This document shows positions 29,814 through 36,457 of a DNA stretch of 49,071 bases, piece after piece. Position numbers and translations under genes: made by a program. The stretch comes from a virus. Within the stretch, counting starts at the first letter, position 1. Every line of letters begins with the position of its first letter. The notes under the pieces are model-generated. The model saw nothing but the letters and a program-made list of their open reading frames with translations, did not search any database and was not told the origin of the DNA. The stretch lies in IMG/VR virus record IMGVR_UViG_3300027909_000030, positions 1-49,071 of that record. The stretch is one strand, 5' to 3'.

Positions 29814-30002
29814 TTACTCCCGCGGTGGAGCTGCGTTCGACCCCGCCGGCCTCAGATCGTCGTCCTCGATCATCGCGTCCACCAGATCTGCGATCTGCGC
29901 TCCCGGATTCGGTTCGCCCGGAACGGCACCTCGCAGGTCTGGCGGGCTCTCTTCATCGAACACCACGGCCTCGCCGTTCCCCTTCCCGATGATGTGGATC
30001 AC
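29814..30002 (-). CDS. Small acidic protein (62 aa)
   Basis: The GTG at 30002 overlaps the glycosyltransferase stop and is preceded by GGAGGGGGC. Sequence: MIHIIGKGNGEAVVFDEESP, then an acidic helix (QIADLVDAMIEDDDLR) and a disordered end. The acidic composition and lack of hydrophobic core suggest a small adaptor or scaffold-like factor. Function unknown. Confidence 0.5.
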   Translation of the reverse strand: MIHIIGKGNGEAVVFDEESPPDLRGAVPGEPNPGAQIADLVDAMIEDDDLRPAGSNAAPPRE

Positions 30003-32035
30003 GCCCCCTCCGCAACGGCCACCGGGGCGGCCGGCCTCCCCGCCTCGACTGCCGGTTCCTGCCCGCCGGCGTACACCCGCTCGTAGCACTCCATCCAGCG
30101 GCCGATCTCCTTGTCGAGGTCGTGGTACTCGCGCGCGTACTCGTAGGCCCGCTGCCCCAGGACCGCCCGGAGCTCGGCGTCCTTGACCAGCGCGTCCATC
30201 TTGTCCCGGAACTCCTCCTCGGTCGTGTAGGTCAGCGCGTTCTCGCCGTCGTGGCAGCAGTCGTAGGGGCGCGTGTCCCCCTGGACGACCGAGGGGATCT
30301 TCAGCGCCGCTGCCTCGAGGAACTTGATCGGCGACTTGAACGTGTTGAACTTCATCTCCGGGAGCGTCGGGTTCGCCAGCGGGATCACGGCCAGGTCGAT
30401 GGCGGCGGCCCCCAGGCGCCAGGAGAACGCCTCGACGTGGACCCACTTCGACTCCTCGACCTTGTTGAGGTCGATACCCCGGAGCGGCCCCCTGTAGAAC
30501 GCCCCGAGCAGGACGAGCCTCACGTCCCGGTCGTTGATGTAGCGGGTCAGCCAGGGCCCCACCGCCGCGATGTCGTGCCAGTGGTTGTCACCGCCCCACC
30601 AGCCGATCCGCACCGGCCCGTCCTTCTTCCGGTCGAAGTGCTCCTTCATCACCGGGTAGAGGGAGAAGTCGATGCAGTTCGGCAGCATGTAGACGTTCGG
30701 GTTGATCGTCCGGAAGTACTCTGCGAGCGGCTGCGTCGTGGTCGTGAGCGCGTCGCACAGGGACATGATCTCCATGTGCCTGAGCCGCTGCTCCCGGTTC
30801 TTCCGGAGGTCGAAGTTGTTCTCCCCGTCCCGCCACAGCCACGCCTCGTCACCGTTCGCGGCCGTGATCTTGATCTCCCGGGTCCCGAGGCCGCGGTAGG
30901 CGTCCGACCAGGGCGACAGGTGGATCGGGTGGTCGTCGTACTCGTAGATCATCCGGAACGACCGCTCCTTCCCGAACGACGCGATAACCTTCACGGACTC
31001 GGAGCAGTGGCTCTGCCAGATGGTCACGTCCGCCCGGTCGATGACCCCCATGACCGTCGCTTCCGGGGCGTCGCCGTGAATGATTTGGACGTTGGCGAGG
31101 CGCTTCTCGAGGATCTTCCGGGCGATGAGGTCCATCCTCCACCAGGCGATGCCGGCCCCCTTGCCGCCCGGGAAGAAGGCGATGTTCAGGTTGTCGTATT
31201 TGATCGGCCCGAACCGCTTCTCGACCGGGTGCCCCGTGACCTCCTCGAGCTTGTTGTTCAGGATCCACTTGTCCTGGAAGATCTTCAGGTTGGCGACGAC
31301 CCCGTGCTTTCCGGTCTGCCGGTGGTTGGCCGACTGGCTCTCCAGGTGGATCGCCACCGCCTTGTGCGTGACGAAGCAGCGGTAGTCGATCGTGCGCGCG
31401 CGCAGGCAGAAGTCCACGTCCTCGTAGTTCCAGCAGAAGTCCGTGTCGAGGCCGCCCAGGGCCTCCCAGACCTCGCGGCGCACGAGCATACAGGCCCCCG
31501 TCACGGCGTCGAAGTACTCGCTGCGCTCCGACTGCGGCGTCTCCGGCCCGTCGCGCTTCTGGTAGGCGACGTGGTACGGGATGCCGTGCGCGTTGAAGAC
31601 GACGCCGACGTGCTGGATCTCGCGGCTCGGGAACAGGAGCTTCGCGCCGACCACCCCGACGTCGGGCTTCTCCTCCATGACCTTCAGCATCTCCGCCAGC
31701 GTGTCTTTCCGCACGATGACGTCGTTGTTCATGAGCAGGAGGTACTTGCCCTTCGACTGGAGCGCGGCGAAGTTGTTGATGGTCGAGAAGGTGTGGTCGA
31801 TTTCCTCGTTCGTCACGCGGAACAGCCTGAATTCCGGGTACCTGTCGTGGACGTACGGGCCAGCGTCCGCCGTCTCGTGCTCGACGATGACGACCTCGGC
31901 GTCGATTCCCTCGAGCCCGGTCTTCAGGGCGGACAGGCAGTTCTTCAGCATCGGCAGCTTCCCGCGCGTGGCGATCAGCACCGAGAGCAGGGGGGTGTGG
32001 GTCTCAGCCTGCGGTTGTTCGACTTCGTGACTCAA
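29999..32035 (-). CDS. Two-domain glycosyltransferase, GT2 fused to GT4-like domain (678 aa)
   Basis: Residues 15-250 are a GT-A (family 2) domain: LLSVLIATRGKLPMLKNCL, the DxD-equivalent NND at 103-105, GACMLVRREVWEALGGLD and WNYEDVDFCLRA, the usual acceptor/catalytic block of rhamnosyl- and galactofuranosyl-type enzymes. Residues about 280-660 are a GT-B part with GPVRIGWWGG, DVRLVLLGAFYRG and an FKSPIKFLEAAALKIPSVVQ donor-binding region. So one chain may add two different sugars. It lies between capsid and adaptor genes. Targets could be the capsid, tail proteins or host envelope polymer; the sequence does not tell. Confidence 0.8.
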   Translation of the reverse strand: MSHEVEQPQAETHTPLLSVLIATRGKLPMLKNCLSALKTGLEGIDAEVVIVEHETADAGPYVHDRYPEFRLFRVTNEEIDHTFSTINNFAALQSKGKYLLLMNNDVIVRKDTLAEMLKVMEEKPDVGVVGAKLLFPSREIQHVGVVFNAHGIPYHVAYQKRDGPETPQSERSEYFDAVTGACMLVRREVWEALGGLDTDFCWNYEDVDFCLRARTIDYRCFVTHKAVAIHLESQSANHRQTGKHGVVANLKIFQDKWILNNKLEEVTGHPVEKRFGPIKYDNLNIAFFPGGKGAGIAWWRMDLIARKILEKRLANVQIIHGDAPEATVMGVIDRADVTIWQSHCSESVKVIASFGKERSFRMIYEYDDHPIHLSPWSDAYRGLGTREIKITAANGDEAWLWRDGENNFDLRKNREQRLRHMEIMSLCDALTTTTQPLAEYFRTINPNVYMLPNCIDFSLYPVMKEHFDRKKDGPVRIGWWGGDNHWHDIAAVGPWLTRYINDRDVRLVLLGAFYRGPLRGIDLNKVEESKWVHVEAFSWRLGAAAIDLAVIPLANPTLPEMKFNTFKSPIKFLEAAALKIPSVVQGDTRPYDCCHDGENALTYTTEEEFRDKMDALVKDAELRAVLGQRAYEYAREYHDLDKEIGRWMECYERVYAGGQEPAVEAGRPAAPVAVAEGA

Positions 32036-33493: not shown

Positions 33494-34323
33494 CGGCTGT
33501 GTTCTTGCGGGCTTTCTATTTCCCGCTCCCGCCGGTTCCCCGGCGGCCCAGGTCATGTCTTCACCCGCGAGTAGCGGGCGCAGCGCGCTTGTGCGTCTCA
33601 TCCCTGTTCGGGGTACACGCTGACCGTCACACCTTCCGGCGGCATGTTTCATCCACCGGCTCGGCTCGGCGTTGCCCGGGGCCGTTAGGCTCTTGGGGTG
33701 TTCGCCGAATTCACGCTGTTTTCTGCGATCTGAAGGTGGTGTAGTGACAGGGCTTGCAGAGAGTCCTGCCGTTCGAGACATCCCATCGGAGATCGGGGTA
33801 GTCCTTGTACGGCTTGATGTGGTCGGCCTGGAGGTCGCCGCCACGTCGGCCGCAGAATTGGCAGGTGTGGTTGTCTCGGGCCAGGACGGCCCGCGACCAG
33901 TCTCTCTGTTCCTTGCACGAGCGCGCCCGTGCTCCTCGCGCCCGCCGTCCTTCAAGCCCTCCCGTCCATCGCGGATTGTTAGGGCCGCTCCCCCACTTGT
34001 ACCCGGGACCGCACTTCCGGCTGCAGTACTTCCGGAACTCGAACCCAGGCTGGATGGTGAACTCGCGGCGGCAGCGTTGACAATGCTTGAGGCGAACAAC
34101 ATCGCTGCGCCAACGAGGATGATCGGGACCGTACCGCACCGGAAGGTTGTTGACCGTCCGCCTGCGGACTTTGACCATGAGCCGCGCCTTGCACGCGAAC
34201 GAGCAGACGCGCGGCCGTTTCGCTGGCACCGATCGGTACCCGACGACATGGTTTCCGCAGATGAAACAATCGTATTCAACCTTCACTCCTCAGATCGTAG
34301 CACCATGCCCCGTTTCAGGAGCC
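33494..34323 (-). other. Predicted group I intron interrupting the major capsid gene (830 nt)
   Basis: The 5' splice site lies after codon 30 (ACT). P1: exon CACU (34327-34324) pairs with GGUG (34304-34301), giving the conserved U-G wobble at the splice point, extended by GCUCC/GGGGC with a six-base loop holding an in-frame stop. P10: exon-2 start AUUCUCU (33493-33487) pairs with GGGGCAU (34311-34305) with one mismatch, and the last intron base is G. Core candidates: P6 CCGGUGG/CCGCCGG, P7 GGUCA (33625-33621)/UGACC (33555-33551), P8 CCCGC/GCGGG with GAAGACA between it and P7, and P9 CCGCCGG-GGAA-CCGGCGG. P3-P5 were not resolved. Confidence 0.7.
33711..34286 (-). CDS. HNH homing endonuclease inside the capsid-gene intron (191 aa)
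   Basis: A GTG start follows TGAGGA within the intron, 38 bases after the 5' splice site, so the enzyme is translated from unspliced RNA in its own frame. Several CxxC pairs (CFICGN, CQRCRREF, CSRKCG) precede an HNH domain at about residues 128-185: RDWSRAVLARDNHTCQFCG, ADHIKPY, VSNGRTLC and PCH. The zinc-ribbon units near the N-terminus may recognise the target. Such enzymes cut intron-less alleles of the same gene so that repair copies the intron. The expected target is the intron-less capsid gene at this position. Confidence 0.75.
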   Translation of the reverse strand: MKVEYDCFICGNHVVGYRSVPAKRPRVCSFACKARLMVKVRRRTVNNLPVRYGPDHPRWRSDVVRLKHCQRCRREFTIQPGFEFRKYCSRKCGPGYKWGSGPNNPRWTGGLEGRRARGARARSCKEQRDWSRAVLARDNHTCQFCGRRGGDLQADHIKPYKDYPDLRWDVSNGRTLCKPCHYTTFRSQKTA

Positions 34324-34413
34324 AGTGATCACGTCCAGAAGATCTTCCCTGTTCGCGGCGCCGGTGAACGAAGAGCCGGAGACGCCCAGTTCGTAGGTCG
34401 TTGTGGTAGGCAT
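34324..34413 (-). CDS. Major capsid protein, exon 1 (residues 1-30)
   Basis: The ATG at 34413, preceded by GAGGGATTTCTTCA, encodes MPTTTTYELGVSGSSFTGAA then NREDLLDVIT. This matches the N-terminus expected of SU10-type capsid proteins, in which a DLLDVIT segment is followed directly by a SPxxTP segment. Without splicing the frame would end two codons later at TGA (34317-34315). Nothing suggests that a 32-residue peptide is itself functional. Confidence 0.7.
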
Positions 34414-35944: not shown

Positions 35945-36457
35945 TTATCGTTTGCACCCGCCCACGAGACGGAATGACCAGCCCCTTTCATGGGGGCAGA
36001 TGCCAGTGCGTCGCCTTCCCCAGTTACAGTTCATGCACATCAGGGCGTAGTCGTCTTTCGGCCACCCGCGCCTCTTCAGGTCGGCCAGGATTTTGTCTGG
36101 TCCACCAAGGCGTCTTCGATGGGCCGATCCGTCTCGTCTCTTGTGCTCGATCGTGAGAAATCCGGGATTCTGCTCGCCGCAACATTCGCACCTGCCGCCG
36201 TACGCAGCCATCATCTCTGCACGGACCGCTGCGGCCTTGAGCCTTATCTTCTGCCGGATCTCGCGTCCCCTGGCGCGCTTGTATTTCGCGTAGTAGTACC
36301 GCGCCTTGTCTGGGTTGGCGGCCCGCCACGCACGCAGTCTTTCTCGGTAGGGCTCGGCGTTCCGTGCTCGCCGCATTTTCGTGCGCGCACACAGGCGGGC
36401 TTTGTTCCGGCGATAGTACTCTCGCTGGTAGTCCGCGTTCTGTTGCTTGGTTCTCAT
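35945..36457 (-). CDS. Free-standing HNH endonuclease (170 aa)
   Basis: A long basic helical N-terminus rich in Arg/Tyr (YQREYYRRNKARLCARTKMR, KARYYYAKYKRARGREIRQK) is a DNA-binding arm seen in phage HNH proteins. The nuclease fold follows at about residues 85-150: CECCGEQNP, LTIEHKRRDG and ALMCMNCNWGRR, giving two CxxC zinc pairs around the catalytic His. It is inserted between the portal-side small gene and the scaffold block by clean ATGA overlaps. It does not interrupt a recognisable coding sequence, so it is probably a free-standing homing-type endonuclease. Confidence 0.7.
   Translation of the reverse strand: MRTKQQNADYQREYYRRNKARLCARTKMRRARNAEPYRERLRAWRAANPDKARYYYAKYKRARGREIRQKIRLKAAAVRAEMMAAYGGRCECCGEQNPGFLTIEHKRRDGSAHRRRLGGPDKILADLKRRGWPKDDYALMCMNCNWGRRRTGICPHERGWSFRLVGGCKR

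Follow-up and report, generated by a model that had tools for sequence, protein, structure and literature searches.

Organization of the interrupted capsid gene

The window, which is the whole 49,071-nt stretch of viral DNA analysed here, has one SU10-type major capsid gene, found on the minus strand in two pieces separated by an 830-nt group I intron. Exon 1 (34413-34324) has 30 codons, translated as MPTTTTYELGVSGSSFTGAANREDLLDVIT, with its own ATG and a GAGGGA motif, and exon 2 (33493-32609) has 294 codons plus the stop and begins with ILSPVDTPLF. The intron lies between them (34323-33494), having T as the last exon base before it and G (33494) as its own last base. Reading on from exon 1 gives GGC TCC TGA, an in-frame stop at intron nucleotides 7-9. 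Joined in phase 0, the two exons give a 324-aa protein of the SU10-type major capsid family (PF17236), which scores 251 bits against 236 bits for exon 2 alone and covers positions 6-287 of the 292 in the profile; exon 1 supplies exactly the 30 residues that exon 2 is missing. The initial annotation, made from the sequence alone, had placed the exons and intron at these same positions, with a stop two codons past DLLDVIT and a compatible frame resuming after 830 bases, and all of this was reproduced.

Continuous relatives, which the initial annotation had named as a check, are common. The nearest capsid relative (L001, 65% identical) is one unbroken gene that reads REDLMDVINIISPTDTP, with no insert and no intron match. 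Similarly, five GenBank phage capsid proteins align without gaps across the exon junction, and about 76 of the 80 best metagenomic capsid loci are continuous at this point. Interrupted loci among those 80 are L078, L086 and L097; L050 was rejected as an interrupted locus, being irregular but having no intron. Alignment to the relatives shows that both exons retain the frame and the conserved residues. A search with exon 2 in bacterial genomes gave no match.

The scaffold-like gene is a separate gene upstream of the capsid gene, in the window as well as in the relatives. Between the scaffold and portal regions there is also a free-standing endonuclease VII/HNH-like gene (35945-36457, minus strand; phrog_1035, 1e-5). 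Just downstream of the capsid gene, the window encodes a 678-aa protein with two glycosyltransferase domains (29999-32035, minus strand), and a TPR/glycosyltransferase-type gene is likewise found behind the capsid gene of L007.

The intron contains the gene for an HNH endonuclease (33711-34286, minus strand), which has 191 codons plus the stop and was recognized by its HNH domain (PF01844, 1e-7 in a profile search). Residues H156, N172 and H181 are invariant across five intron-encoded HNH proteins, and the matches of the protein by tblastn in phages were all partial and fell in HNH genes. The 3' end of the gene extends into the P2 and P3 helices, with the stop codon overlapping P3. The ribosome-binding site previously ascribed to this frame stands in part: an SD-like GAGGAG exists, but the earliest possible start codon, a GTG at 34286, shares bases with it instead of following 5-9 nt behind, so the site is weak.

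Intron core, splice sites and peripheral helices

The Rfam model for group I introns, RF00028 (Intron_gpI), gave no match at gathering or relaxed thresholds, either with the whole sequence or with the 3' part only. The initial annotation had counted the lack of a significant Intron_gpI score against the intron; on this point its expectation failed at every threshold, while a purpose-built model does match. The gathering threshold describes the detector and not a biological property: RF00028 recognizes the first intron of L007 (55.8 bits) and introns of L008 (74-88 bits), whereas the L003 capsid intron, at 45.1 bits, falls below the cut-off of 50. The Rfam model has been described as incomplete for phage introns (PMC11878797). 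Folding of the full 861 nt with RNAfold was uninformative for the core.

After RF00028 had remained silent, relatives were sought with a core pattern from the P4 region, which led to tRNA introns and to L007. A covariance model, R1, was then built from ten intron cores out of the 18 contigs described below, with the window excluded. R1 has a single match in the 49-kb window (33718-33549, minus strand; 52.3 bits), over the full model length, with an E-value of 7.8e-16 that is rough because the calibration was short; the same model gives 30-98 bits to bacterial and viral introns that had been detected in other ways. The match delimits the core from P3 to P7 (33549-33718).

The core includes, all on the minus strand, the P3 5' strand CAGCGUG (33712-33718), which pairs with CGCGCUG (33587-33581), the P4 5' strand UUCGGC (33704-33709), which pairs with GCCGAG (33670-33665), and P6/P6a (33632-33664), in which CC(GAG)CCGGUG pairs with CGCCGG(AA)GG, as placed in the core alignment. 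The P7 5' strand A(C)GGUCA, with the guanosine-site G (33621-33627), pairs with UGACCU (33555-33550) in both R1 and the alignment, and R1 gives a P7.1-like hairpin GCGU/ACGC between P7 and P3 (33593-33620). P8, CGCCCGC-UACUC-GCGGGUG, is followed by J8/7 AAGACA (33562-33580) and was read from the sequence, three of its pairs being in the core alignment.

In the 94-column alignment of P3, P4, P6, P7 and P8, all 30 pairs of the window core are standard and none is broken. Fourteen of them are doubly changed with respect to the commonest pair (three in P3, four in P4, three in P6a, three in P7 and one in P8). Window segments were placed by hand where R1, without P3, slipped by two bases, and this placement favours the P3 structure, while P4, P6 and P7 are independent of it. 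Across the 14 aligned sequences, 420 of 420 cells are paired and double changes occur at 20 of the 30 pairs; none of 500 shuffles was as good, and slid partners were 27-49% paired. Three P7 pairs change together (A-U to G-C, C-G to U-A and U-A to C-G), and the G-C of the P7 guanosine site (core columns 57/92; 33625/33551 in the window) is invariant in the 14 sequences, with the bulged C also conserved. The independent covariance model and the compensatory base changes identify the element as a group I intron; together with exon continuity and the homologous introns described below, they bear out the initial annotation of a group I intron with an HNH gene splitting the capsid gene. Extra helices between P7 and P3 (P7.1/P7.2) are a feature of group IA introns, and from the hairpin at the P7.1 place the intron most likely belongs to subgroup IA (IA1 or IA2).

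When the splice sites were shifted from -6 to +6, only the junction given here combined an exon-final T with an intron-final G, the terminal base given in the initial annotation. The P1 hairpin (34301-34327, minus strand) pairs the exon CACU (34327-34324) with the guide GGUG (34304-34301), an exon-guide pairing of only 4 bp, and is extended by GGCUCC/GGGGC, folding at -11.3 kcal/mol (z -2.65); it has the proposed U-G wobble at the 5' splice site. For a possible P10, the guide GGGGCAU (34305-34311) was set by hand against exon 2 AUUCUCU (33493-33487), giving six of seven pairs with a single U-C mismatch. Folding predicts P9, with a GGAA tetraloop, at 33529-33546 and a P9.1-like hairpin, GCGGG/CCCGC, at 33507-33526. 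The P6, P7, P8 and GNRA-capped P9 helices listed in the initial annotation are all present, to which P2, P3, P4 and the P7.1-like hairpin can be added.

In P2, the 5' strand CGAUCUGAGG (34288-34297, minus strand) overlaps the SD-like GAGGAG of the HNH gene, and the 3' strand CUUCAGAUCG (33726-33735, minus strand) lies within the 3' end of the same gene. The pairing is modest by itself, being matched by 30 of 5000 mononucleotide shuffles. Stems of 10-12 pairs at the P2 place are also found in the capsid introns of L100, L007 and L003, and less clearly in L101, L103 and L116; because these stems are shared, the HNH gene of the window is placed in the P2 loop. The L107 intron has a bare P2 hairpin with no gene. 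With the SD-like GAGGAG in its 5' strand, P2 folding may restrain translation of the HNH gene.

Related introns in bacterial flagellin and phage capsid genes

A search pattern was taken from the unusual P7 of the window, A(C)GGUCA/UGACCU, and the J8/7 motif. The window-type P7 was found in nine Bacillaceae flagellin-type introns (L121-L123, L125, L126, L128-L130 and L132) and two viral contigs; the match at P7 is not independent, since the pattern was derived from the window, whereas the rest of the core is. The host gene was read from the translated flanks in L121, L130 and L132 only, and it is flagellin in these three. All nine bacterial cores, the nearest RNA relatives of the window core, are nearly identical to the window at P3-J3/4-P4, J6/7-P7 and J8/7-P7 (GTGAATTCGG, GAAGGTGTGACGGTCAG and GTGAAGAYATGACCTG), including the unusual P7; however, they are located in a flagellin gene on a bacterial chromosome and not in a phage capsid gene. 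Self-splicing is cited in PMC3984707 for flagellin introns of thermophilic Bacillus, which may be other loci than L121-L132. Pattern matches in L124, L127 and L131 are chance, having no R1 match. In each of the viral contigs L119 and L120, at least two group I cores follow one another, and one of them has the window-type P7. Blastn searches of 50,697 phage records with the intron, and with its core alone, found no homologous intron.

Introns at nearly the same place are present in other SU10-type capsid genes. The phage contig L007 has an HNH intron there, and the best relative of the window HNH protein, in L003, is also encoded by an intron of a capsid gene. A pattern from the L078 and L097 cores retrieved 18 contigs, 11 of which are capsid genes interrupted at or near REDLxD^V. 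The capsid introns of uncultured phages include those of L100-L103, L107, L110-L112, L114-L116, L007 and L003, and share with the window the gene, the short N-terminal motif and an HNH gene between P1 and P3 (absent from L107). With the D^V boundary taken as 0, about ten contigs have their intron at 0, L007 at +2, the window at +9 and L003 at +24 nt. Relative to the intron in the window, the others lie 9 or 7 nt upstream or 15 nt downstream, and no second intron was found at exactly its position. Their cores and HNH proteins have also diverged, with HNH proteins 26-46% identical to that of the window and an L007 core of different build, having no room for P7.1. Second introns, with LAGLIDADG-like genes, were seen deeper in the SU10-type capsid genes of L007 (3880-4479) and L003 (4741-5409).

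The differing positions, HNH proteins and core builds suggest separate intron arrivals; alternatively, the four insertion points may come from sliding of one intron. Tentatively, and with the balance of probability against it, the motif REDLxDVIYNISPxDTP could have been colonised repeatedly and independently, the introns being maintained because each HNH protein attacks, during co-infection, the capsid genes of phages without the intron. An intron endonuclease attacking a co-infecting phage has been reported for phage PhiPA3 (PMC11620839). In the 50,697 phage records, blastn with the L100 core retrieved related cores at genes for DNA polymerase, portal and RNA polymerase, as well as at unannotated places; none of the matches is annotated as a capsid gene.

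Proposed splicing and homing, and comparison with known systems

Here it is proposed, with high confidence, that the element is a mobile HNH group I intron, with its gene in the P2 loop, inserted after codon 30 of the only SU10-type capsid gene found, and that it splices and homes. Folding, guanosine-dependent splicing and restoration of the reading frame are general behaviour of group I introns, and splicing of the capsid intron is very likely. Translation of the capsid precursor would stop after two intron codons, and this early stop would keep ribosomes out of the intron core; early stops in group I introns have been discussed before (PMC3984707). The U-G pair of P1 would set the 5' splice site, a guanosine bound in P7 would cut the exon, and P10 would align exon 2; a final cleavage, behind the last G of the intron, would link DVIT with ILSP. 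Capsid alleles that have no intron are presumably nicked or cut by the HNH protein close to the conserved motif, and the intron would then be copied into them. P2 would hide the start region of the HNH gene. As one SU10-type capsid gene was found in the record, the phage would need splicing for its supply of capsid protein, provided that the record is complete. Splicing would also have to be very efficient, since hundreds of capsid copies are needed per particle in a short time.

The intron could instead be degenerate and no longer splice, in a defective phage or one that makes its capsid otherwise, which is improbable. Its P7 departs from the usual phage GACUA/UAGUC, it is missed by Rfam, P1 is short and the HNH start is odd. 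However, decay would break core pairs, and all of these are preserved, even the six in P3 and P7 that are changed on both sides; the window-type P7 is common to many bacterial introns, and the exons keep their frame and conserved residues. There is very little to recommend a second alternative, in which no intron exists and translation of the capsid protein begins within the insert. Ahead of exon 2, its frame indeed has no stop for about 260 codons, back to 34279 and across most of the intron. The resulting 556-aa ORF (34279-32609, minus strand) has a long N-terminal extension, and an automatic gene caller would therefore report a false capsid protein of this length. The relatives, however, begin with the exon-1 sequence, for which the window has a start and GAGGGA of its own and exactly the residues required; the extended frame runs over both the HNH gene and the RNA core, and the scaffold-like gene is a separate one upstream. 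Equally hard to credit is an assembly chimera or contamination that put the HNH gene into the capsid gene of this metagenomic contig, as the boundaries are exact to the codon, with splice-site bases, and the arrangement recurs near the site in at least ten other contigs.

The intron proposed here as splicing and homing has known counterparts. Group IA introns with homing endonucleases, of the T4/SPO1 type, are best known from genes of DNA metabolism. In general plan only, they resemble the window in having a self-splicing intron with an endonuclease and a P7.1-type insertion (PMC2988022, PMC11878797). In LittleE, of the Cluster J mycobacteriophages, splicing of a capsid-gene intron was demonstrated in infected cells by RT-PCR and protein N-terminal sequence (PMC3706429). 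Like the window, LittleE has an intervening sequence of about 820 bp with a putative homing endonuclease gene in the major capsid gene, where the exon ends in U and the intron in G; by description, the two differ in that the endonuclease of LittleE is encoded on the opposite strand, with a likeness to LAGLIDADG noted in the text, and in that the intron type is given as "most likely group I" (PMC3706429). PMC3706429 also cites a further capsid-gene intron, in Tuc2009. No report of introns in SU10-type capsid genes was found in the open-access literature. Capsid-gene introns are already known, and what is new is the recurrence of HNH introns at one SU10-type capsid motif.

With several differing introns at one 24-bp motif, it can be tested whether homing favours capsid genes as targets and whether phages use such introns as weapons against each other. 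Additionally, GC-rich introns of phages can escape the Rfam group I model, and the capsid genes that contain them are then prone to mis-annotation.

Further clusters of group I introns were observed in other viral contigs. Four cores lie close together in L008 (5195-6926, minus strand). In another capsid family, Phage_cap_E, about a dozen group I introns apparently interrupt the gene over a span of 5-6 kb (L104, 658-5343; L105, 123-4481; L109, 549-3781; and L108, record positions 80021-85569; all minus strand). The large exon of this split gene is 59% identical to the capsid protein of Synechococcus phage S-CBWM1, and its exons are as short as about 30-60 nt. At least eight exon pieces in L104 match the intact S-CBWM1 protein and follow its order, and in the 279-kb L108 record 13 of the 15 model matches are inside the split Phage_cap_E locus.
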